Positions 20,636-30,569 of a stretch of 32,547 bases of DNA are shown piece after piece. The position numbers and the translations under genes are program-made. Under the pieces are notes generated by a model. It was not told where the DNA came from. It ran no database searches and worked only from the letters and a program-made list of their open reading frames with translations. Each line of letters starts with the position of its first letter. The stretch's first letter is position 1. This DNA comes from Candidatus Peregrinibacteria bacterium CG1_02_54_53 (GTDB taxonomy: Bacteria; Patescibacteriota; Gracilibacteria; Peribacterales; Peribacteraceae): NCBI GenBank assembly GCA_001872575.1, contig MNWP01000010.1:1-32547 (forward strand), read 5' to 3'.

Positions 20636-20664
20636 TTGCTCTGTACCTATGGGGTAGGTATGAT
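20636..20664 (+). promoter_or_regulatory. Promoter with CsoR-like operator at the head of the copper island
   Basis: TTGCTC (20636-20641), 17 bp, TATGAT (20659-20664). The spacer is nearly filled by TACCTATGGGGTAGGTA (20644-20660), an inverted repeat with arms TACCTA/TAGGTA that contains TACC-N4-GGGTA, like known CsoR operators. Repressor bound there would exclude RNA polymerase. The ATG of the next gene begins four bases after the -10 box. Confidence 0.7.
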
Positions 20665-21351: not shown

Positions 21352-22752
21352 ATGTCCGCATCCTCAGAAAAACGACAAGTCACCCTGCGCATCAGCGGGA
21401 TGACCTGCCACAGTTGCGAACTCCTTCTGGAACGTACGATCAAATCCGTTCCGGGCGTGACGCACGTCAACGTGCTGCACCGCAAAGGTATCGCCAGAAT
21501 CACAGCCTCGGTCGATACGCTGCCGTCATTCGAACAGCTCGAGTCGGTAATCCGTGATGCGGGATACGCCGTTGTTTCAGAACAGGAAAATCTGACCGTT
21601 CGACGGGATTGCAGTATCCGACAAGAGCCTGAGCCCTCGCAGCAGAAATGGATGGAAATCGGCGGTGCACTCGTCATCATCTTCGCCATCTACAAGTTGC
21701 TGGGTGCATTCGATCTTGTCTCTCTTGCTCCTTCCACTGCCGGGGCACTTACTTTCGGAGGAACGCTTCTCATCGGCGTCGTTGCAGGAATGAGCAGCTG
21801 TCTCGCCGTCACGGGAGGTCTTCTGCTCGCGATGGCCGCCAAGTACAACGAACTCCACGGCGGTTCCACGCCCGGTCAACGCCTCAAGCCCCTCCTGCAG
21901 TTCAACATCGGCCGTCTGGCCTCGTATTTCGCACTCGGCGGACTCGTCGGCCTGTTGGGGCAATCCATCACGCTCTCGACGCAAATGACGGGGCTCATGA
22001 GCATCATCGTTGCCTTGGTCATGCTCTATCTCGCACTCACGATCCTGAAGATCATCCCTAAGGGAAGTTTTCCGATTCAGCCCCCAAAGGCCTTCACGCA
22101 CTGGATTGCCAACCTGTCGGAGAATAATCATCCGGCCGCCCCATTCGCCCTCGGCGCACTGACGTTCTTTCTGCCATGCGGCTTCACCCAGTCATTGCAA
22201 CTGGTTGCTCTCGCCTCCGGCAGTTTCTGGGCCGGCGCCATGACGATGTTCACGTTCGCGCTTGGCACTCTGCCCTCTCTCATCGGTATCAGTTACATCT
22301 CTGCGAATGCACGAGGCACATCTTCGCGCCTCTTTCTGCGATTCGCAGGAACACTGGTGCTGGTGCTTGCACTTTTCAATCTCAATAACGGATTCACTTT
22401 GGTGGGTGTCGATATCCCCCAAACCATGGCTGCCGCATTCGGGCCAAAGAATCCCACAGGTACCCAGCCATCCGCAGCCGTACAGAACGGCGTACAGGAA
22501 GTTTCGATGGTCGTCGCGGGCTACGGCTACGAACCAAGCTCACTCACGATCCGCTCGGGCGTACCTGTGCGCTTTCACGTGGACGGTACCAAGGCAGGAG
22601 GCTGCACACGCGGCTTCGTCATCCCCTCGCTCGGCATCAGCAAGGTTCTTGCAGCAGGAGACAACGTCTTTGAATTCACGCCGCAGAGTCCCGGCCGCAT
22701 CCCCTTCAGCTGTTCCATGGGCATGGTTCGCGGATCCTTTACCGTCATTTGA
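21352..22752 (+). CDS. HMA - SafE/DsbD-like membrane - cupredoxin fusion protein
   Basis: 466 residues in three parts. Residues 8-78 are an HMA Cu(I)-binding domain with GMTCHSC (Cys19, Cys22). Residues 100-355 are six or so membrane helices of the SafE/DsbD-like type, with GVVAGMSSCLAVTGG and FFLPCGFTQS bearing the paired Cys/Pro motifs. Residues 378-466 form a cupredoxin-like domain with GGCTRGFVIP and SCSMGMVRGSF, where Cys, His and Met could bind copper. The order suggests transfer of copper from cytosol through the membrane to an external cupredoxin. The ATG at 21352 follows a CT-rich stretch. The DsbA-like gene follows after 21 bases, likely in one operon. Confidence 0.85.
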   Translation: MSASSEKRQVTLRISGMTCHSCELLLERTIKSVPGVTHVNVLHRKGIARITASVDTLPSFEQLESVIRDAGYAVVSEQENLTVRRDCSIRQEPEPSQQKWMEIGGALVIIFAIYKLLGAFDLVSLAPSTAGALTFGGTLLIGVVAGMSSCLAVTGGLLLAMAAKYNELHGGSTPGQRLKPLLQFNIGRLASYFALGGLVGLLGQSITLSTQMTGLMSIIVALVMLYLALTILKIIPKGSFPIQPPKAFTHWIANLSENNHPAAPFALGALTFFLPCGFTQSLQLVALASGSFWAGAMTMFTFALGTLPSLIGISYISANARGTSSRLFLRFAGTLVLVLALFNLNNGFTLVGVDIPQTMAAAFGPKNPTGTQPSAAVQNGVQEVSMVVAGYGYEPSSLTIRSGVPVRFHVDGTKAGGCTRGFVIPSLGISKVLAAGDNVFEFTPQSPGRIPFSCSMGMVRGSFTVI

Positions 22753-22773: not shown

Positions 22774-23550
22774 ATGAACTCTCTCCAGTGGAAAGAACTG
22801 CGCGACTCTAAAGTTCCTGCTCCTGCCGGCGCTCAACCGGGTATGTGGTTCGGAGTATCCATGGTTCTCGTGGGCGTCATCATCGGTTTCTCTGCAGGAC
22901 GTTTTGCCGGCGGAGGACTCACCTTCGCCAATACCGTTCCCACTCCGACAGCCCCAATTCCGACGGCTCCCAGCCCAGCCCCGACCCCTGCGCCGGTGCC
23001 GGATCCCGAGACTGCCATCAATGTCATTCCTGTCGACTTTGAAAAGGATCATATTCGCGGCAGTACGAATGCCGATATTGCCGTCATTGAGTACTCCGAT
23101 TTCGAGTGTCCGTTCTGTCAACGCGTACATCCGACCATGAAACAGCTTCTCGAGCAGAACACGGGCAAGATCATGTGGGTGTACCGCCATTATCCTCTCA
23201 GCTTCCATCCGCAAGCGGAACCTGCGGCCATTGCTTCGGAATGCGTAAATGAGCTGGGAGGCAACACCGCCTTCTGGAAATTCGCCGATGCGGTGTTCGA
23301 AGGGGGCTCGTTCGATTTCCCTGCCATCGCTCAGAAGATCGGCATCAACGCCGATGCCCTGCAAACCTGCATCGATAGCGGAAAGTACAAGGCGCAGGTG
23401 CAGGAACAGTTGTCACAAGGCTCGGCCTCGGGCATTCAGGGCACACCGGGCACCATCGTTCTCAATAGAAAAACGCAAGAGAACCGCATCGTCTCGGGCG
23501 CCCAGCCGCTTCAAAACTTCCAGAATGCGATTGATGACCTCCTCCAGTAA
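22774..23550 (+). CDS. Membrane-anchored DsbA-like thioredoxin-fold oxidoreductase
   Basis: 258 residues. A membrane anchor lies at about residues 24-48 (FGVSMVLVGVIIGFSAGRF), then a Pro/Thr/Ala spacer, then a thioredoxin-fold domain beginning IEYSDFECPFCQRVHP with active-site C112-P-F-C115 and the cis-Pro loop GIQGTPGTIV. This resembles the BdbD/DsbA group that forms or repairs disulfides outside the membrane. In a copper island it may keep Cu-binding cysteines of the neighbours in order or counter copper-driven mis-oxidation. It is likely cotranscribed with the genes on both sides. Confidence 0.85.
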   Translation: MNSLQWKELRDSKVPAPAGAQPGMWFGVSMVLVGVIIGFSAGRFAGGGLTFANTVPTPTAPIPTAPSPAPTPAPVPDPETAINVIPVDFEKDHIRGSTNADIAVIEYSDFECPFCQRVHPTMKQLLEQNTGKIMWVYRHYPLSFHPQAEPAAIASECVNELGGNTAFWKFADAVFEGGSFDFPAIAQKIGINADALQTCIDSGKYKAQVQEQLSQGSASGIQGTPGTIVLNRKTQENRIVSGAQPLQNFQNAIDDLLQ

Positions 23551-23553
23551 TTC

Positions 23554-23597
23554 CCCCAACCCTAACCCTATCCCCTAACCCTATCCCCTAACCCTCC
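23554..23597 (+). repeat. CCCTAA-type tract with 13-bp higher-order repeat
   Basis: CCCTAA-like units arranged as about three copies of CCTAACCCTATCC. It fills the gap between the dsbA-like gene and the HMA gene, and ends one base before the ATG at 23599. Confidence 0.85.
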
Positions 23598-23598
23598 T

Positions 23599-23823
23599 AT
23601 GCGTACTCTCGTTCAAATCCCCGGCATTCACTGTCAATCCTGTGCCGTTCTCATCAAAGATGTCAGCCAGGAATTTCCCTCCATTCAGAACATTGACGTC
23701 AATGTAGACGCCAAAACGGTCGATCTGCGCCACGACGGCCACTTCGATCTCACGTTGTGGACAGGAGCCGTCGAAGAGCTGAATAGCGCCTACAGAGTTC
23801 AGCCCGTCTCGCAAACACTGTGA
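23599..23823 (+). CDS. Stand-alone HMA-domain copper chaperone
   Basis: 74 residues, the size of CopZ. The motif GIHCQSC (Cys12, Cys15) and the beta-alpha pattern (SQEFPSIQNIDVNVDAKTVD) match the HMA family, which carries Cu(I) to P1B ATPases. The usual Met before the first Cys region is replaced by Ile-His. The start ATG follows the CCCTAA tract with no SD. A terminator-like hairpin follows 26 bases after the stop, closing the first operon of the copper island. Confidence 0.82.
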   Translation: MRTLVQIPGIHCQSCAVLIKDVSQEFPSIQNIDVNVDAKTVDLRHDGHFDLTLWTGAVEELNSAYRVQPVSQTL

Positions 23824-23848: not shown

Positions 23849-23876
23849 AAGGAGGCTCCTCAAGAGGGGCCTCCTT
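23849..23876 (+). terminator. Terminator-like hairpin after the HMA gene
   Basis: AAGGAGGC (23849-23856) pairs with GCCTCCTT (23869-23876); CCT/AGG extends the stem inside one mismatch around CAAG. The tail GCATTTGCTTT is only moderately T-rich. Confidence 0.7.
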
Positions 23877-23968: not shown

Positions 23969-24853
23969 ATGACAGCTTCCGGCGTACGGGAGAAGCACTT
24001 CTTCTGGGCGCTCATCCTCAACGGTGGACTTGCTGTCACAGAACTCGCCATGAGCGTCGTAACTGGGAGCACGGCAGTGCTCGCAGACGGCCTCATGAAT
24101 GTCGACGACCTTGCAGCGCTCGTCTTCAGTATCTACAGCGAACGAAAGATGCGGCAGGCTGCCGACGAACGGCGCACCTTCGGCTACGGGCGCATGGACG
24201 CGCTCGCGGGTTTTGTGAAGGGCTGTCTATTACTGCTCTCCTCGTTGGTTGTCATCCTCCAAGCGGGACGCCTGCTGCTGATGCCCGAAACAGTCGCAGG
24301 TACAACCGTTCTCTTTATTGGGGTTGCCTCGCTCGCAGTCAACTTCATTTCCTCCGTCATGCTCAGGGCCGATGCATGTTGCAGCCTTAATGCGCGGGGG
24401 ACATACGCCTGCATGAAATATGACATGTTCGGTTCGACCGCTCTGATTGTGAGCGGTTTGCTCTCGAACTCCTTCAACGTCGCATATTTCGATGTTGCTG
24501 CCGCCCTCCTCATCGCTTTCTTCATGGTCCGAAGCGGATGGGGCATCTTTGTGGAAGGTGCCCGACTCTTCCTTCAATCTGCTCCGACGGATTTTCTGTA
24601 CGACGACTTCGAAAAGGCTGTTCTCGCCATCGAGGGCGTGACCGCTGTCGGCGATATTCACGTCTGGATCCTAACGCCGAAGGAACACCATTTGACCTGC
24701 AAAGTCACGCTCAGGAATGGGGACATCTGCCGCTGTGACAAGATCATCCGTGCAATCGAACAGATTGCCGGAAGGATGGGAATTCAACACACTACAGTCC
24801 AGCCGGTGTACACTAAAGAAACACTTCAGCGTTTCTGCAAAGCACCCACGTGA
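23969..24853 (+). CDS. CDF-family cation transporter with Met/Cys in the metal site
   Basis: 294 residues, six membrane helices and a cytoplasmic C-terminal domain (DDFEKAVLAIEGVTAVGDIHVWILT), typical of cation diffusion facilitators. FGYGRMDALAGF matches the family GYGRxE loop. In the transport site the usual H(or D)xxxD of helix 2 reads M43-N-V-D-D47, and HxxxD of helix 5 reads C148-M-K-Y-D152. Both His positions thus carry soft sulfur ligands. CDF proteins usually export Zn2+, Co2+, Fe2+ or Mn2+; these changes together with the copper context point to Cu(I) or another soft metal. The next gene overlaps its stop (TGATG). Confidence 0.82.
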   Translation: MTASGVREKHFFWALILNGGLAVTELAMSVVTGSTAVLADGLMNVDDLAALVFSIYSERKMRQAADERRTFGYGRMDALAGFVKGCLLLLSSLVVILQAGRLLLMPETVAGTTVLFIGVASLAVNFISSVMLRADACCSLNARGTYACMKYDMFGSTALIVSGLLSNSFNVAYFDVAAALLIAFFMVRSGWGIFVEGARLFLQSAPTDFLYDDFEKAVLAIEGVTAVGDIHVWILTPKEHHLTCKVTLRNGDICRCDKIIRAIEQIAGRMGIQHTTVQPVYTKETLQRFCKAPT

Positions 24854-25305
24854 TGCGGGCACAGAAAAATTGCCGGCATTCCATTCTGATGTTTTTCGGT
24901 GCAAGTTTCACCCTCCACCTCTTCTGGGAAAATTTTCAAGCGCCGCTGTATCAGGGATTCACATCGTTCCGACAACATTTCTGGATCTGCCTCAAGGCGA
25001 CAGGGGGCGATCTCCTCTTCATGCTTGTCATTTACACCTCCCTTGCGCTCATCCATCGCGATCCCCTCTGGATCTCCAACCGACCGACGTATGCGCATCC
25101 CGCAACGTGGATCATTATGCCACTCATCGGCGCTCTCCTTGCCATAGCATTCGAGCTCTGGGCCGTTTATGTCGCGAATCGCTGGCAGTATGCAGCGATG
25201 CCGCTGATTCCAGTGGTGGGGGTTGGCCTGCTCCCTGTTCTCCAGATGATTATCATTCCGCTTGCAGCCGTTGCAATCAGTTTACGTCTCGCTCCTCGTG
25301 GCTAA
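24853..25305 (+). CDS. 4-TM membrane protein of the copper island
   Basis: 150 residues. The ATG overlaps the stop of the CDF gene, so translation is coupled. Hydrophobic segments lie near 10-27, 49-69, 86-108 and 117-143. The loops carry FTLHLFWENFQAPLYQG, with His, Glu and Gln next to aromatics, and RPTYAHPATW. I have an impression of similar proteins in other bacteria but cannot name a family. The coupling suggests a partner of the transporter. Confidence 0.6.
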   Translation: MRAQKNCRHSILMFFGASFTLHLFWENFQAPLYQGFTSFRQHFWICLKATGGDLLFMLVIYTSLALIHRDPLWISNRPTYAHPATWIIMPLIGALLAIAFELWAVYVANRWQYAAMPLIPVVGVGLLPVLQMIIIPLAAVAISLRLAPRG

Positions 25306-25501
25306 TCTTGACAAAGCCCTTCTACCCTGCAACCCGTTATTGCGATCTTTATGCGCAGTGCCCTCCCTTCGCAACTTCACCCTTTTCCGTGTCTACCCGC
25401 ATGTGAACGATGACGGCGGGGAAGAAGGAGAGAAGGCCCGTTTTTTTCCTTTACCCACACCCTAGGTTATGGTATCTTTCTGTACACTTTCTCACCGCAT
25501 C

Positions 25502-25774
25502 ATGACCATCCAGAAGCAGAAAGCACTCATCGGCTACAAGAAAGCACAGAGCCTTCTCAAGAAAATCATCACGATGGTCGAAGAGGACCGGTACTGCATC
25601 GATATCATGCAGCAGAACCTGGCTGCCATCGGCCTGCTTAAATCTGCACACCAGCTCCTTTTTGAAGGTCATCTGAACAGCTGTTTCAAGAGCGCACTCG
25701 AGACGAACAGCCCCGCCAAAAAGCAAAAAATGATCGACGAGATTCTGACGGTGACGAAGATGGCGACTAAGTGA
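25502..25774 (+). CDS. csoR: CsoR-family copper-sensing repressor
   Basis: 90 residues, all helical, of the CsoR/RcnR/FrmR family. The Cu(I) ligands of CsoR are present with exact spacing: Cys32 (in YCIDI), His57 and Cys61 (in EGHLNSC), 25 and 4 residues apart. In this family Cu(I) binding releases DNA. The ATG at 25502 follows a TACACT box (25483-25488) by 13 bases. Two palindromes that could be its operators lie at 20644-20660 and 28168-28192; none is evident in its own promoter. The 196-bp gap upstream contains a stray TTGACA (25308) but no gene. Confidence 0.9.
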   Translation: MTIQKQKALIGYKKAQSLLKKIITMVEEDRYCIDIMQQNLAAIGLLKSAHQLLFEGHLNSCFKSALETNSPAKKQKMIDEILTVTKMATK

Positions 25775-25824: not shown

Positions 25825-28086
25825 ATGCACGATCACTCTGCAAACCAGCCCGATTCCCTCGCACCCCGCATCGACTGTTCGTGCGGCAAATCCTGTATGA
25901 GCTGTAATGCAGAGGATCTCTGCGTTTCTTCGGGATGCACTATGGAAGCTAAACAATATGAATACGGTCTGCAGAAACGCATCAAACACGACATACATGG
26001 TCACCAACCACACAAAAATCATGAAATGTCTCCAAAGCATGATGATCATGACATGAGCAAAATAAGCCATCATGATCATGAATCAGCCATGAATAACCCG
26101 CGAATGGCCAAACATATGGAAACCGACATGCGACGTAGATTCTGGATTTCACTAATCCTTACGATTCCGATCGTCCTTCTTTCGCCTCTCGGAGCTTCAC
26201 TGACAGGCCTTACGCTTCCATCGGAAATTTTCGTTAACTGGATCCTACTTACTCTCTCCACGCCCATCGTCTTCTGGGCAGGATCAATCTTTCTTATAGG
26301 AACATACCACTCCCTCCGGGCCAGGAAGCTCAATATGGCCGTTCTCATCGCCACGGGGGTGCTTGCAGCCTACGTGGGAAGCACCATCCTCATGTTCACT
26401 GTCGGAGGCGAAACGTTCTTCGATGCCGCCGCTATGCTCGTTACGTTCGTGTTATTCGGGCATTGGATGGAGATGAAATCACGTCGTGGAACATCCGAAG
26501 CGCTGCGAGCACTCTTCGATCTTATCCCGCCACAGGCAACCGTTATACGCGACGACAAAGAAATATCCATTTCAAGCGCTGAGATCGTTCAAGGCGATAC
26601 CGTCGTACTCAAGCCGGGTGATAAAGTGCCCGTGGACGGAAAAATTACCGAGGGAGAGAGTGCCATTGATGAATCGCTTGTCACAGGCGAATCCATGCCT
26701 GTCTCCAAAATCAAAGGTGATACGGTTGTCGGAGGATCAGTGAATCAAACGGGCACCGTTAAATTCAAAGCATTGCAAGTGGGAGCCGACACCGTTCTTG
26801 CACAGATCATAAAGCTTGTCGAAACCGCGCAGAACTCCAAAGCACCAGGGCAGCGCATCGCGGATAAGGCTGCTGCAATCCTCGTCATCGTCGCCATCGG
26901 CTCCGGCGTGCTGACGTTCTTTGGGTGGTACGTGTTCGGTAGTGCATCGATTCTGACATCCCTTACTTTCGCCATCTCCGCCGTCGTCATCGCCTGTCCT
27001 GACGCACTGGGCCTCGCTACACCGACCGCCGTGGCAGTCGGAACAGGGATCGGCGCCAAGCACAATATCCTCATCAAAGATGCCGCAACACTGGAAAATA
27101 CTTCACGCCTCACCGCCATCGTGCTTGATAAAACAGGGACACTGACAGAGGGGAAACCGAAGGTGACAGATGTCATTGCCTTGGACGATTTCAAAGAATC
27201 CGATGTGCTGGCGTACGAAGCAAGCGTGGAAAGCGGATCGAATCATCCGCTCGCAAAAGCTATTGTGACAATTGCTCGAGAACGCAATGCCCATGCTTTC
27301 TCTATACAAGATTTTACATCCATCGCCGGACATGGCCTGAAGGCGACGGTGAATGGTAGACTGGTATTAGTGGGAACGGAAAAAATGATGAAAGACAACG
27401 GCATCACGACTGAAGCAGCGCAGGATGATCTAAGAAGACTGGCCGGAAAAACTTTCAGCCTGCTTTCCATTGATGGAAAGTTGAAAGGTATCATTGCGGC
27501 TGCAGATACCCCCAGACCGAGTGCGAAGCGGGCCATCGACGGTCTGAAGGCACTTGGCATTCTACCGGTAATGATGACAGGCGATCATCGGCAGGTGGCA
27601 AAAGAGACGGCAAAAGAACTCGGCATCGAGCGTGTTTTCGCGGAAGTGCTTCCAGAACACAAAGCGGATCAGGTGAAGAAATTACAAGAAGAAGGGAACT
27701 TTGTTGCCATGGTCGGCGACGGGATCAACGATGCTCCTGCACTCGCACAAGCGAATATCGGCATTGCGATCGGCGCAGGGACGGACGTGGCGATTGAAAC
27801 GGGAGATATCGTACTTATGAAGTCCGATCCGGCCGATATTCTTAATGCCATTATTTTAAGCAAGGCGACCGTCCGCAAAATGAAACAGAATCTTTTCTGG
27901 GCGGCGATTTATAACGTGCTCGCGCTCCCCGTCGCCGCAGGCGTGTTCTACCCCTCCTTCGGTATTGCACTCGCGCCAGAGATCTCAGCACTACTTATGT
28001 CCCTTTCCTCCATTGTTATTGCATCGAATGCTGTCCTCTTGAAGCGCGTCGAATTCTCCTTGTCTGTCGCACAAACGCCTCAATGA
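25825..28086 (+). CDS. P1B-type metal ATPase with CPD motif and Cys/His-rich N-terminus
   Basis: 753 residues. Core P-type motifs are present: TGES (from T287), phosphorylated D435 in DKTGT, the P1B signature SNHPL, and [12 protein letters not shown]. The membrane metal site in helix 6 reads C391-P-D393, not CPC (Cu+) or CPH (CopB). The N-terminus lacks an HMA domain and instead has CSCGKSCMSC ... CVSSGC (about 18-38) and a His/Met/Asp-rich run (about 55-90), like CopB proteins. It has the YNxxxxP and MSLSS elements of Cu pumps. It probably exports a soft metal; the substrate is open. Codons are more AT-rich than in copA, suggesting a separate origin. Confidence 0.88.
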   Translation: MHDHSANQPDSLAPRIDCSCGKSCMSCNAEDLCVSSGCTMEAKQYEYGLQKRIKHDIHGHQPHKNHEMSPKHDDHDMSKISHHDHESAMNNPRMAKHMETDMRRRFWISLILTIPIVLLSPLGASLTGLTLPSEIFVNWILLTLSTPIVFWAGSIFLIGTYHSLRARKLNMAVLIATGVLAAYVGSTILMFTVGGETFFDAAAMLVTFVLFGHWMEMKSRRGTSEALRALFDLIPPQATVIRDDKEISISSAEIVQGDTVVLKPGDKVPVDGKITEGESAIDESLVTGESMPVSKIKGDTVVGGSVNQTGTVKFKALQVGADTVLAQIIKLVETAQNSKAPGQRIADKAAAILVIVAIGSGVLTFFGWYVFGSASILTSLTFAISAVVIACPDALGLATPTAVAVGTGIGAKHNILIKDAATLENTSRLTAIVLDKTGTLTEGKPKVTDVIALDDFKESDVLAYEASVESGSNHPLAKAIVTIARERNAHAFSIQDFTSIAGHGLKATVNGRLVLVGTEKMMKDNGITTEAAQDDLRRLAGKTFSLLSIDGKLKGIIAAADTPRPSAKRAIDGLKALGILPVMMTGDHRQVAKETAKELGIERVFAEVLPEHKADQVKKLQEEGNFVAMVGDGINDAPALAQANIGIAIGAGTDVAIETGDIVLMKSDPADILNAIILSKATVRKMKQNLFWAAIYNVLALPVAAGVFYPSFGIALAPEISALLMSLSSIVIASNAVLLKRVEFSLSVAQTPQ

Positions 28087-28151: not shown

Positions 28152-28192
28152 TTGACGTATGAATGCTATACCTATACCATAGGTATAGGTAT
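28152..28192 (+). promoter_or_regulatory. copA promoter with perfect 11-bp palindromic operator
   Basis: TTGACG (28152-28157), 17 bp, TACCAT (28175-28180). Over the -10 box lies an inverted repeat, arms ATACCTATACC (28168-28178) and GGTATAGGTAT (28182-28192) separated by ATA. It contains the TACCTA/TAGGTA words of the operator at 20644. CsoR binding would block polymerase; Cu(I) would relieve it. Confidence 0.8.
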
Positions 28193-28211
28193 TAGTTTTT
28201 CCCACAGCAAA

Positions 28212-30569
28212 ATGCCCGATTCTCATAATCACGCGACAAAAACTCCCTGCAACGGCAAGGTTTCACTCTCGCTCAAGGGAATGCATTGCGCTTCGTGCGC
28301 AGGCCTCATTGAGCGCTCACTCAAGAAACTCCCCGGCATTCAAAGTGCCAATGTGAATTTCGCCGCAGAGAAGGCATCGGTGCTCTTCGACCCCGCAAAA
28401 ACCTCGACGGAAAAACTGATTCACGCGGTGGAAGAAGCCGGCTATCACGCCTCGGTCGCCGTGGAGCATGACCGTGATGCCGATCGTAAACGCCGGAAAG
28501 CAGAGGTGCTCTCGGCGCGGCACAGCTTCATGGTGGCCTTCATTCTCAGTGCCCCGCTGCTTCTGCTGATGATCGTTCCGTTTTTTCCTGAAAGTTCGAT
28601 GAGCATGCTGCTGGGACCGTGGATGGGCATCCTCTCGCTCATCTTCGCCACCCCCGTGCAGTTTTGGCTGGGGGCGGGGTTCTACCGCGGATTTTGGTCC
28701 AGTCTGAAGATGAAGACCTTTACCATGGACAGTCTCATTGCCATCGGTACGTCGACGGCCTATTTCTTCAGTCTTCTGAATTATATGGTTGCATCGTTGG
28801 AACGTCGCTCGCTCATCGGTGAGACGGCGAATCTCTACTTCGAAGTCGCTGCGCTGCTCATCACGTTCGTATTGCTTGGCAAGTGGCTCGAAGCGCGCGC
28901 CAAGGGCCGTACGAGCGAAGCCATCGAAAAACTGATGGGTCTGCAGCCCAAAACCGCCCGCGTACTGCGCGACGGCAATCCCGTCGATATCCCCATAGAA
29001 GAAGTGAAGATCGGCGATACGATCGTCGTACGTCCGGGCGAGAAGATCCCCGTAGACGGCATCGTTACCCGCGGCCTCTCCGCCGTCGATGAATCGATGC
29101 TGACCGGCGAGAGTATTCCTACCGAGAAGAAAGAAGGCGATCGTGTATTCGGTGCAACACTGAACCAGAACGGCTCCATCGAGTTCACTGCAGACAAGAT
29201 CGGCGCCGAAACCGCGCTGGCCCGCATTATCCGGTTCGTCGAAGAGGCACAGGGCAGCAAGGCGCCCATTCAGAACTTCGCCGACGCCATTGCACGCTGG
29301 TTCGTGCCCGCAGTTATCCTTGCGGCGATTCTGACCTTCGTCGTGTGGATGCTCATCGGCCAGACCCTCACCTTCGCCCTGCTCGCATTCGTCTCGGTCA
29401 TCGTGATCGCCTGCCCCTGCGCACTCGGTCTTGCCACTCCCACGGCGTTGATGGTCTCGACCGGTCGCGGCGCAGAACTGGGCGTACTGATTCGCGGCGG
29501 TGAGCCGCTCGAGGCGGCGAATGCCATCGATACCGTCATCTTCGATAAGACCGGCACACTCACCCACGGCAAGCCCGTGGTGACGGATATCCTGCCCACA
29601 GGATCGCTCTCGAAACAGGAGCTCCTCGGTATCGCGGCCAGCTTAGAACAGGTCTCGGAACATCCTCTGGCCGAGAGCATCGTTCGCAAAGCGAACGAAG
29701 ATCAGGCGGCACTGTCGTCTGCCGAACATTTTCGTGCAATCCCCGGACACGGAGTCGAGGGGATGATTGCAGGAACGCTCACCTACCTCGGCAACCGAAA
29801 GTTGATGGAACAATTTCAGATTGCAACGGAGCAAATCGAGACGCAATTACGCACGCTCGAAGAACAAGGAAAAACTGCGATGATCCTCGCCCGAAAAGAT
29901 GGCGTTCTCGGGCTCATCGCCGTTGCCGATACTCTCAAGGAAACCACTCCCGCAGCCATTGCCGCACTGAAGCACATGGGCCTTACATCCGTAATGATCA
30001 CGGGGGACAATACACGTACGGCGCAGGCGATTGCGAAACTCGCGGGTATCGATCAAATCCTCGCCGATGTGCTGCCCGAGCAGAAGGCAGAAGAAGTGAA
30101 ACGCCTGCAAGCCGAAGGAAAGCGTGTCGCCATGGTGGGTGACGGCATCAACGACAGTCCGGCACTTGCGCAAGCCGATTTGGGAATCGCCATGGGCAGC
30201 GGCACCGACATCGCCATGGAAACAGGTGGCATCGTGCTGGTGAAGAACGATCTGCGCGATGTTGCAACGGCAATCCATTTAAGCCGCACCACCGTAAGCA
30301 AGATCAAGCAGAACCTCTTCTTCGCGCTCTTCTACAATGTCGTGGGCATCCCCATCGCTGCCCGCGCCTTTGCGGGTTTCGGCATCATCCTGCGACCGGA
30401 GCTGGCCGGACTCGCCATGGCCCTAAGCTCCGTCTCGGTCGTGACGAATTCGCTGCTGCTCAAAAGATGGAAGCCGGGAAAATTGAACCTGCTGTCCCGC
30501 TTCGCACCCGTCATCATGACCGTAGGATTCACGGGGCTCTTTCTCGTATTTGCACGCCTGAGCGCGTGA
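28212..30569 (+). CDS. copA: Cu(+)-exporting P1B-type ATPase CopA
   Basis: 785 residues from the ATG at 28212. The frame extends upstream to 28152, but that region is promoter and operator. An N-terminal HMA domain carries GMHCASC (Cys26, Cys29). The eight-helix core has TGES (T298-S301), C401-P-C403 in helix 6, phosphorylated D445 in DKTGT, the HP motif (SEHPLAES) and GDGIND (643-648), all canonical for P1B-1 Cu(I) exporters. A short His-bearing start (MPDSHNH) precedes the HMA. Control by CsoR through the palindrome in its promoter is likely. The lipoprotein gene follows after 15 bases and is probably cotranscribed. Confidence 0.96.

Follow-up and report, generated by a model that had tools for sequence, protein, structure and literature searches.

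Site A of the CDF transporters, to which transmembrane helices TM2 and TM5 each contribute one half, is a standard example of how few ligands fix the choice of metal. The published quartets named in the accessible part of a site-A survey are HD-HD, HD-ED, DD-HD, ND-DD, DD-DD, EN-HD and HH-DH, with Cys rarer in CDF quartets and a poor correlation between quartet composition and metal choice across the family (PMC5703985). As far as these sources reach, the natural variants that the literature compares draw on His, Asp, Asn and Glu. The CDF signature of Montanini et al. 2007 accepts H, D, N, E or L ([HDNEL]) at its position 10 and excludes Met (PMC1868760). CdfX of Cupriavidus, a CDF that lacks the C-terminal domain (CTD) and is under ZntR control, exports Zn (PMC11580412).

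The annotation of E. coli ZitB includes Cu(2+) export. To our knowledge, a CDF is not a usual component of copper efflux, and a literature search, covering its sources in part, found no published precedent that ties a CDF to copper or to CsoR. The other described system to which our locus compares is the copper island built on CsoR and CopA. The window analyzed here (32,547 nucleotides of contig MNWP01000010.1, from Candidatus Peregrinibacteria bacterium CG1_02_54_53) shares with such islands the CsoR triad, a Cu-ATPase with a CPC motif and HMA proteins, to which a related locus in genome G063 adds CusBA; unlike them, both the window and the G063 island include a CDF. This CDF carries Met and Cys in site A next to intact aspartates. 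Such a clade offers a test of two questions: can a thiol site convert a zinc antiporter to the export of a soft metal such as Cu(I) or Ag(I), and can the CDF family carry a monovalent ion at all?

A CDF clade with Met and Cys in site A

The CDF gene of the window is, judging by its sequence, that of a full-length CDF antiporter, for which proton-coupled export is predicted from the family. The protein scores 93.5 bits against Pfam Cation_efflux (PF01545, cut-off 26.6), 27.1 bits against Pfam ZT_dimer (cut-off 26.7) and 164 bits against the NCBIfam model TIGR01297 CDF (cut-off 82.35), and it has the site-A aspartates of TM2 and TM5 that mark members of the family (D47 and D152, present in 7/7 orthologs). 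Structure prediction, which the first-pass annotation had proposed as a check, yielded an AlphaFold2 model (pLDDT 82) with the CDF fold, in which six long helices precede an alpha-beta domain at the C-terminus; its closest PDB folds are ZnT1, the best match, ZnT7 and ZnT3. Fold, six helices, C-terminal domain, site-A aspartates and family scores are all shared with the ZitB/CzcD/ZnT-like side of the family. The window clade differs from it in having M (N in one member) and C where H or D open the two halves of site A, and in carrying five additional invariant cysteines.

That M43-x3-D47 and C148-x3-D152 are the two halves of site A had been read from the sequence in the first-pass annotation. 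A phmmer alignment to human ZnT1 agrees, as do the translation and the codons: M43 falls on H43, D47 on D47, C148 on H251 and D152 on D255, and both helices are free of gaps, with no other residues placed in the site. The window CDF, with M43 and C148, therefore departs from the Zn-type site A, in which His or Asp comes first in both halves. Compared with the published quartets, its four positions and their spacing are identical but the residues, MD-CD, differ, and this quartet is absent from those named in the accessible part of the survey (PMC5703985). Six of the seven clade members fail the Montanini signature, at position 10 alone; the G063 member, with Asn, passes. In the comparison set of CDFs, a Cys stands at the TM5 position only in the MD-CD clade and in two members of a separate clade of short CDFs, with D-x3-D and C-x3-D (DD-CD).

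A search of 144 genomes related to that of the window returned six orthologs with 54-81% identity (57-81% within the matched stretch), all in one Peribacteraceae-level family; this family-level group accounts for 74 of the 144 genomes, and 7 of the 74 carry an MD-CD CDF. Samples of the class (353 genomes) and of the phylum (380, evenly drawn) gave no further orthologs. A scan of 84,980 species with two alignment-derived peptide patterns, which more divergent members could escape, found five orthologs, from Peribacteria or unassigned Patescibacteria, together with four ZitB-like proteins with His sites from other bacteria. A contig scan with the single window protein as query returned no relative, whereas this alignment-based scan did find orthologs. 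Across the samples and the pattern scan, the MD-CD clade was not found outside the Peribacteraceae-level family. The clade is monophyletic (support 100/100), and its stem is long (1.63 changes per site). The monophyly supports the earlier proposal of a genuine CDF branch defined by the swap. The MD-CD CDF is a true, conserved and family-restricted variant, and in the window and G063 its surroundings are of copper type.

D47, C148 and D152 are invariant in all seven orthologs, down to 54-57% identity; at position 43, six have Met and the seventh (G063) has Asn. Because C148 and both aspartates are kept over this range, we regard the change of site A as more than chance. C137 is likewise invariant (7/7), as are C244, C254, C256 and C290 in the six full-length copies. 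With helix limits taken from the AlphaFold2 model and on the usual CDF topology, C137 presumably belongs to the cytoplasmic loop between TM4 and TM5, the place of the His-rich loop of ZnTs, and the other four presumably lie within or after the cytoplasmic C-terminal domain. Full-length members contain 9-12 cysteines each and the partial G063 copy three; the median for 53 other CDFs is 2. These features bear on the idea of an ordinary zinc CDF whose site A has drifted with its function unchanged. Drift would be consistent with the poor tracking of metal choice by site-A composition, as given in the accessible part of the survey (PMC5703985), and with the replacement of Met43 by Asn in one ortholog. 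The invariance of C148, D47 and D152 down to the 54-57% identical ortholog, the further invariant cysteines and the fact that no zinc genes were seen among the neighbours examined all argue against it, however, and we consider it unlikely.

Copper genes at the window and orthologous loci

All genes described between 21352 and 30569 lie on the + strand (Table 1). The first-pass annotation had placed the CDF in one island with CsoR and CopA, and both are indeed found there: the CsoR-type repressor has the C-H-C triad for Cu(I) and scores 55.6 bits against Pfam Trns_repr_metal (PF02583), and CopA has the CPC motif. In the other ATPase (25825-28086), CPD replaces CPC/CPH as the TM6 motif. A CsoR-type palindrome was looked for upstream of the CDF and not seen, while a clear palindrome precedes CopA; a weaker site resembling it lies at 20642-20656. 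Telomere-like repeats (CCCTAACCCTATCC...) occupy positions 23555-23597, between the DsbA-type and HMA genes.

Table 1. Features of the copper island in the window, and aspartate-less CDFs at other loci of the phylum
Position	Strand	Feature	Basis or remark
21352-22752	+	Fusion of HMA, DsbD/CcdA-like membrane and cupredoxin domains	Pfam
22774-23550	+	DsbA/thioredoxin_4-type protein	Pfam, NCBIfam
23599-23823	+	Small HMA-domain (CopZ/MerP-like) protein, GIHCQSC	Pfam, motif
23849-23876	+	Terminator-like hairpin, 12 pairs (7 G-C), between HMA gene and CDF	Consensus match alone
23969-24853	+	CDF-family transporter, 294 aa; site A = M43, D47, C148, D152	Six TM helices and cytoplasmic ZT_dimer domain
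24095-24109	+	Site A, TM2 half, M43-x3-D47	Codons ATG 24095-24097, GAC 24107-24109
24410-24424	+	Site A, TM5 half, C148-x3-D152	Codons TGC 24410-24412, GAC 24422-24424
24850-25305	+	x24850, uncharacterised membrane protein	No match in Pfam or NCBIfam
25469-25774	+	CsoR-type repressor, C-x24-H-x3-C	Pfam, NCBIfam, motif; real start may be further in
25825-28086	+	P1B-type ATPase, copper-translocating subfamily	TIGR01511, 583.6 bits; His-rich N-terminus
28152-30569	+	CopA, Cu(I) P1B ATPase	HMA domain, CPC, YN and MxxSS motifs; start probably ATG 28212
28166-28192	+	27-bp palindrome CTATACCTATACCATAGGTATAGGTAT	Precedes likely CopA start; candidate CsoR operator
L135:5113-6051		Aspartate-less CDF, G057 (window's own family)	Between CsoR and HMA-CopA pair
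L136:6549-7466		Aspartate-less CDF, G277	No copper gene seen
L137:5894-6799		Aspartate-less CDF, G328	Between CsoR and Cu-type ATPase
L138:5883-6776		Aspartate-less CDF, G353	No copper gene seen
L139:5915-6856		Aspartate-less CDF, G450	Directly before Cu-type ATPase

The gene neighbourhoods of the orthologs vary. In G063, one contig carries CsoR, CusB-type and CusA-type genes, a DUF302 protein and the CDF, and a second contig carries the C-terminal part of the CDF, an HMA protein, CopA and DsbA. In keeping with its type, the G063 CusA aligned with E. coli CusA has Met at 573, 623 and 672 (numbering hand-counted from the alignment). The CDF gene is thus split across two contigs whose ends overlap poorly and both carry a repeat of about 30 bp (TTCATGCTCATTCT..., L024:1-160 and L025:1-160); for these reasons we infer the join, and the gene may be interrupted. 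In G013, CusB- and CusA-type RND genes lie near the CDF (the CusA-type copy is short). G003 and G016 have a DUF302 protein upstream of the CDF and x24850 downstream; the DUF302 literature gives no metal role. Two DsbA-type proteins are encoded near the CDF in G053, and in G041 the closest copper gene, for a cupredoxin/COX2-like protein, is 3.2 kb off; neither of these two loci has a copper ATPase, CsoR or RND neighbour.

The proposed link between this branch and copper genes therefore holds in part. It is direct in the window and G063, may run through CusB/CusA-type RND genes in G013 and runs only through x24850, a neighbour of CopA elsewhere, in G003 and G016; it is not seen in G053 and G041. 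The search for CDFs with M-x3-D plus C-x3-D beside csoR or copA, suggested at the outset, recovered a clade of seven (six of them with Met), but the genes are close at two of the seven loci only. At these two loci (window and G063; 2/7) the CDF has a copper ATPase or CsoR close by; of the canonical loci in the phylum, 1 of 21 does, a difference that is not significant by itself (p=0.15). Pooled with the HT-HA clade described below, the count becomes 5/12 versus 1/21 (p=0.016), with both the pooling and the distance criterion picked after the data were seen. Having CsoR or a Cu-ATPase at another place in the genome did not significantly predict the CDF (p=0.11 for each) and was rejected as an indicator of it.

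A stronger indirect copper link than the 2/7 count is provided by x24850. Its start overlaps the CDF stop (TGATG), so that it is probably translationally coupled to the CDF, and it adjoins the CDF in G003 and G016 as well. Four genomes of the family that have no MD-CD CDF (G042, G012, G050 and G032) encode it at a distance of 0.1-2.2 kb from CopA, and in Pontibacter a plasmid-borne homolog immediately follows a copper ATPase. A second copy in G016 and the copy in G134 do not share a contig with CopA.

Substrate of the MD-CD CDF

We tentatively propose that the MD-CD protein is a proton-coupled CDF antiporter adapted to a thiophilic metal in a copper/silver island, with Cu(I) or Ag(I) as its likeliest substrate, a reading to which we would give a little less than an even chance. 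Cytoplasmic thiols would collect the metal, possibly handed over by the product of the neighbouring HMA gene; site A would bind it through C148, M43 and the aspartates, and it would be moved to the periplasm against protons. There its handling may pass to DsbA, cupredoxin and, for some relatives, CusBA. The Cu(I)/Ag(I) assignment of the first-pass annotation is favoured by the copper-type islands but weakened by the count above (2/7 vs 1/21, p=0.15), by the variability of Met43, which is Asn in G063, the most copper-rich locus, and by a Marinobacter relative with C-x3-D whose MerR regulator is of the divalent type. The hairpin that parts the HMA gene from the CDF also weighs against it.

The same periplasmic partners would suit a CDF for copper delivery, which would load Cu(I) into the periplasm for cupredoxin/COX2-like cuproproteins together with DsbA and the HMA-DsbD-cupredoxin protein. 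DsbA-type genes are found near the CDF in the window, G053 and G063, and cupredoxin domains occur in the window island and in G041, there 3.2 kb from the CDF. CsoR, CopA and CusBA nevertheless point to efflux, and DsbA and cupredoxin belong to copper defence too, which makes delivery the least probable of the readings considered here.

The Marinobacter protein belongs with that of G272 to a clade of short CDFs that lack the C-terminal domain and combine D-x3-D with C-x3-D. These short DD-CD proteins, relatives of cadR-linked CDFs and of the CdfX type, resemble the window CDF in the C-x3-D of TM5, whereas the window clade has M instead of D in TM2 and possesses the C-terminal domain. They form a separate clade (100/99) that is not sister to the MD-CD clade. 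The tree thus led us to reject the MD-CD clade as a full-length form of the short DD-CD CDFs, and the window CDF, with its domain present and its place in another clade, is not a member of the CTD-lacking DD-CD/cadR type. Next to the Marinobacter CDF is a MerR-type regulator whose dimer helix contains a Cys, as is characteristic of divalent-metal sensors; the sister short CDFs are linked to cadR.

In G272, the short CDF has among its neighbours a DUF302 protein 68% identical to that of G003 and a homolog of x24850. The cassette (L100:5246-8231) runs from DUF302 through the DD-CD CDF to the x24850 homolog, with two other ORFs between. That CDFs of different clades with C-x3-D occur in one gene setting (G272; G003/G016) suggests that the Cys is functional.

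These relatives bring in a second possible substrate class, that of thiophilic divalent ions (Cd, Pb, Hg, or Zn if the preference is altered), carried by a thiol-modified CDF in a general metal-resistance island. The Marinobacter MerR, the cadR-linked sisters and CdfX are the main evidence for such a role: CTD-lacking CDFs, with C-x3-D or F-x3-D, stand beside cadR and lspA or beside a MerR with a dimer-helix Cys, and CdfX, ZntR-controlled as noted, exports Zn. The retained aspartates would in addition leave a site with two carboxylates and one thiol, which suits divalent d10 ions, and the MD-CD protein is the sole CDF found in six of the seven carrier genomes, so that a broader role is possible. 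On the other hand, a Pfam search of the neighbours, covering part of the small ORFs, identified no ZntA-type ATPase and no Czc, MerR or ArsR gene at the seven loci, the metal genes identified in the window and G063 are of the copper/silver type, and the short clade is not sister to that of Peribacteria. As no zinc genes were seen among the neighbours examined at the seven loci, homologs with the signature do not show the linkage to zinc genes that the first-pass annotation had named as evidence against its proposal. We regard a divalent substrate as a real possibility, though one that we would not expect to prevail over Cu(I) or Ag(I).

Aspartate-less CDFs in copper islands

Another group of CDFs bears on whether the family shares in copper handling. 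In a clade of five CDFs from the phylum (support 100/99), both aspartates of site A are gone and the two histidines remain, giving the motifs H-x3-T/A and H-x3-A/T (HT-HA/HA-HT). It is conceivable, if rather doubtful, that CDFs of Patescibacteria were recruited to copper islands at least twice, site A being rebuilt with sulfur ligands in one case and by loss of the aspartates in the other. If both clades move Cu(I), CDFs are not limited to divalent ions, and the HT-HA/HA-HT clade must work without aspartates thought to be needed for coupling. Three of the five aspartate-less CDFs are encoded beside a copper ATPase, two of these near CsoR too (Table 1). The CPD motif noted in the window also occurs in ATPase homologs at L139 (G450) and L160 (G354).
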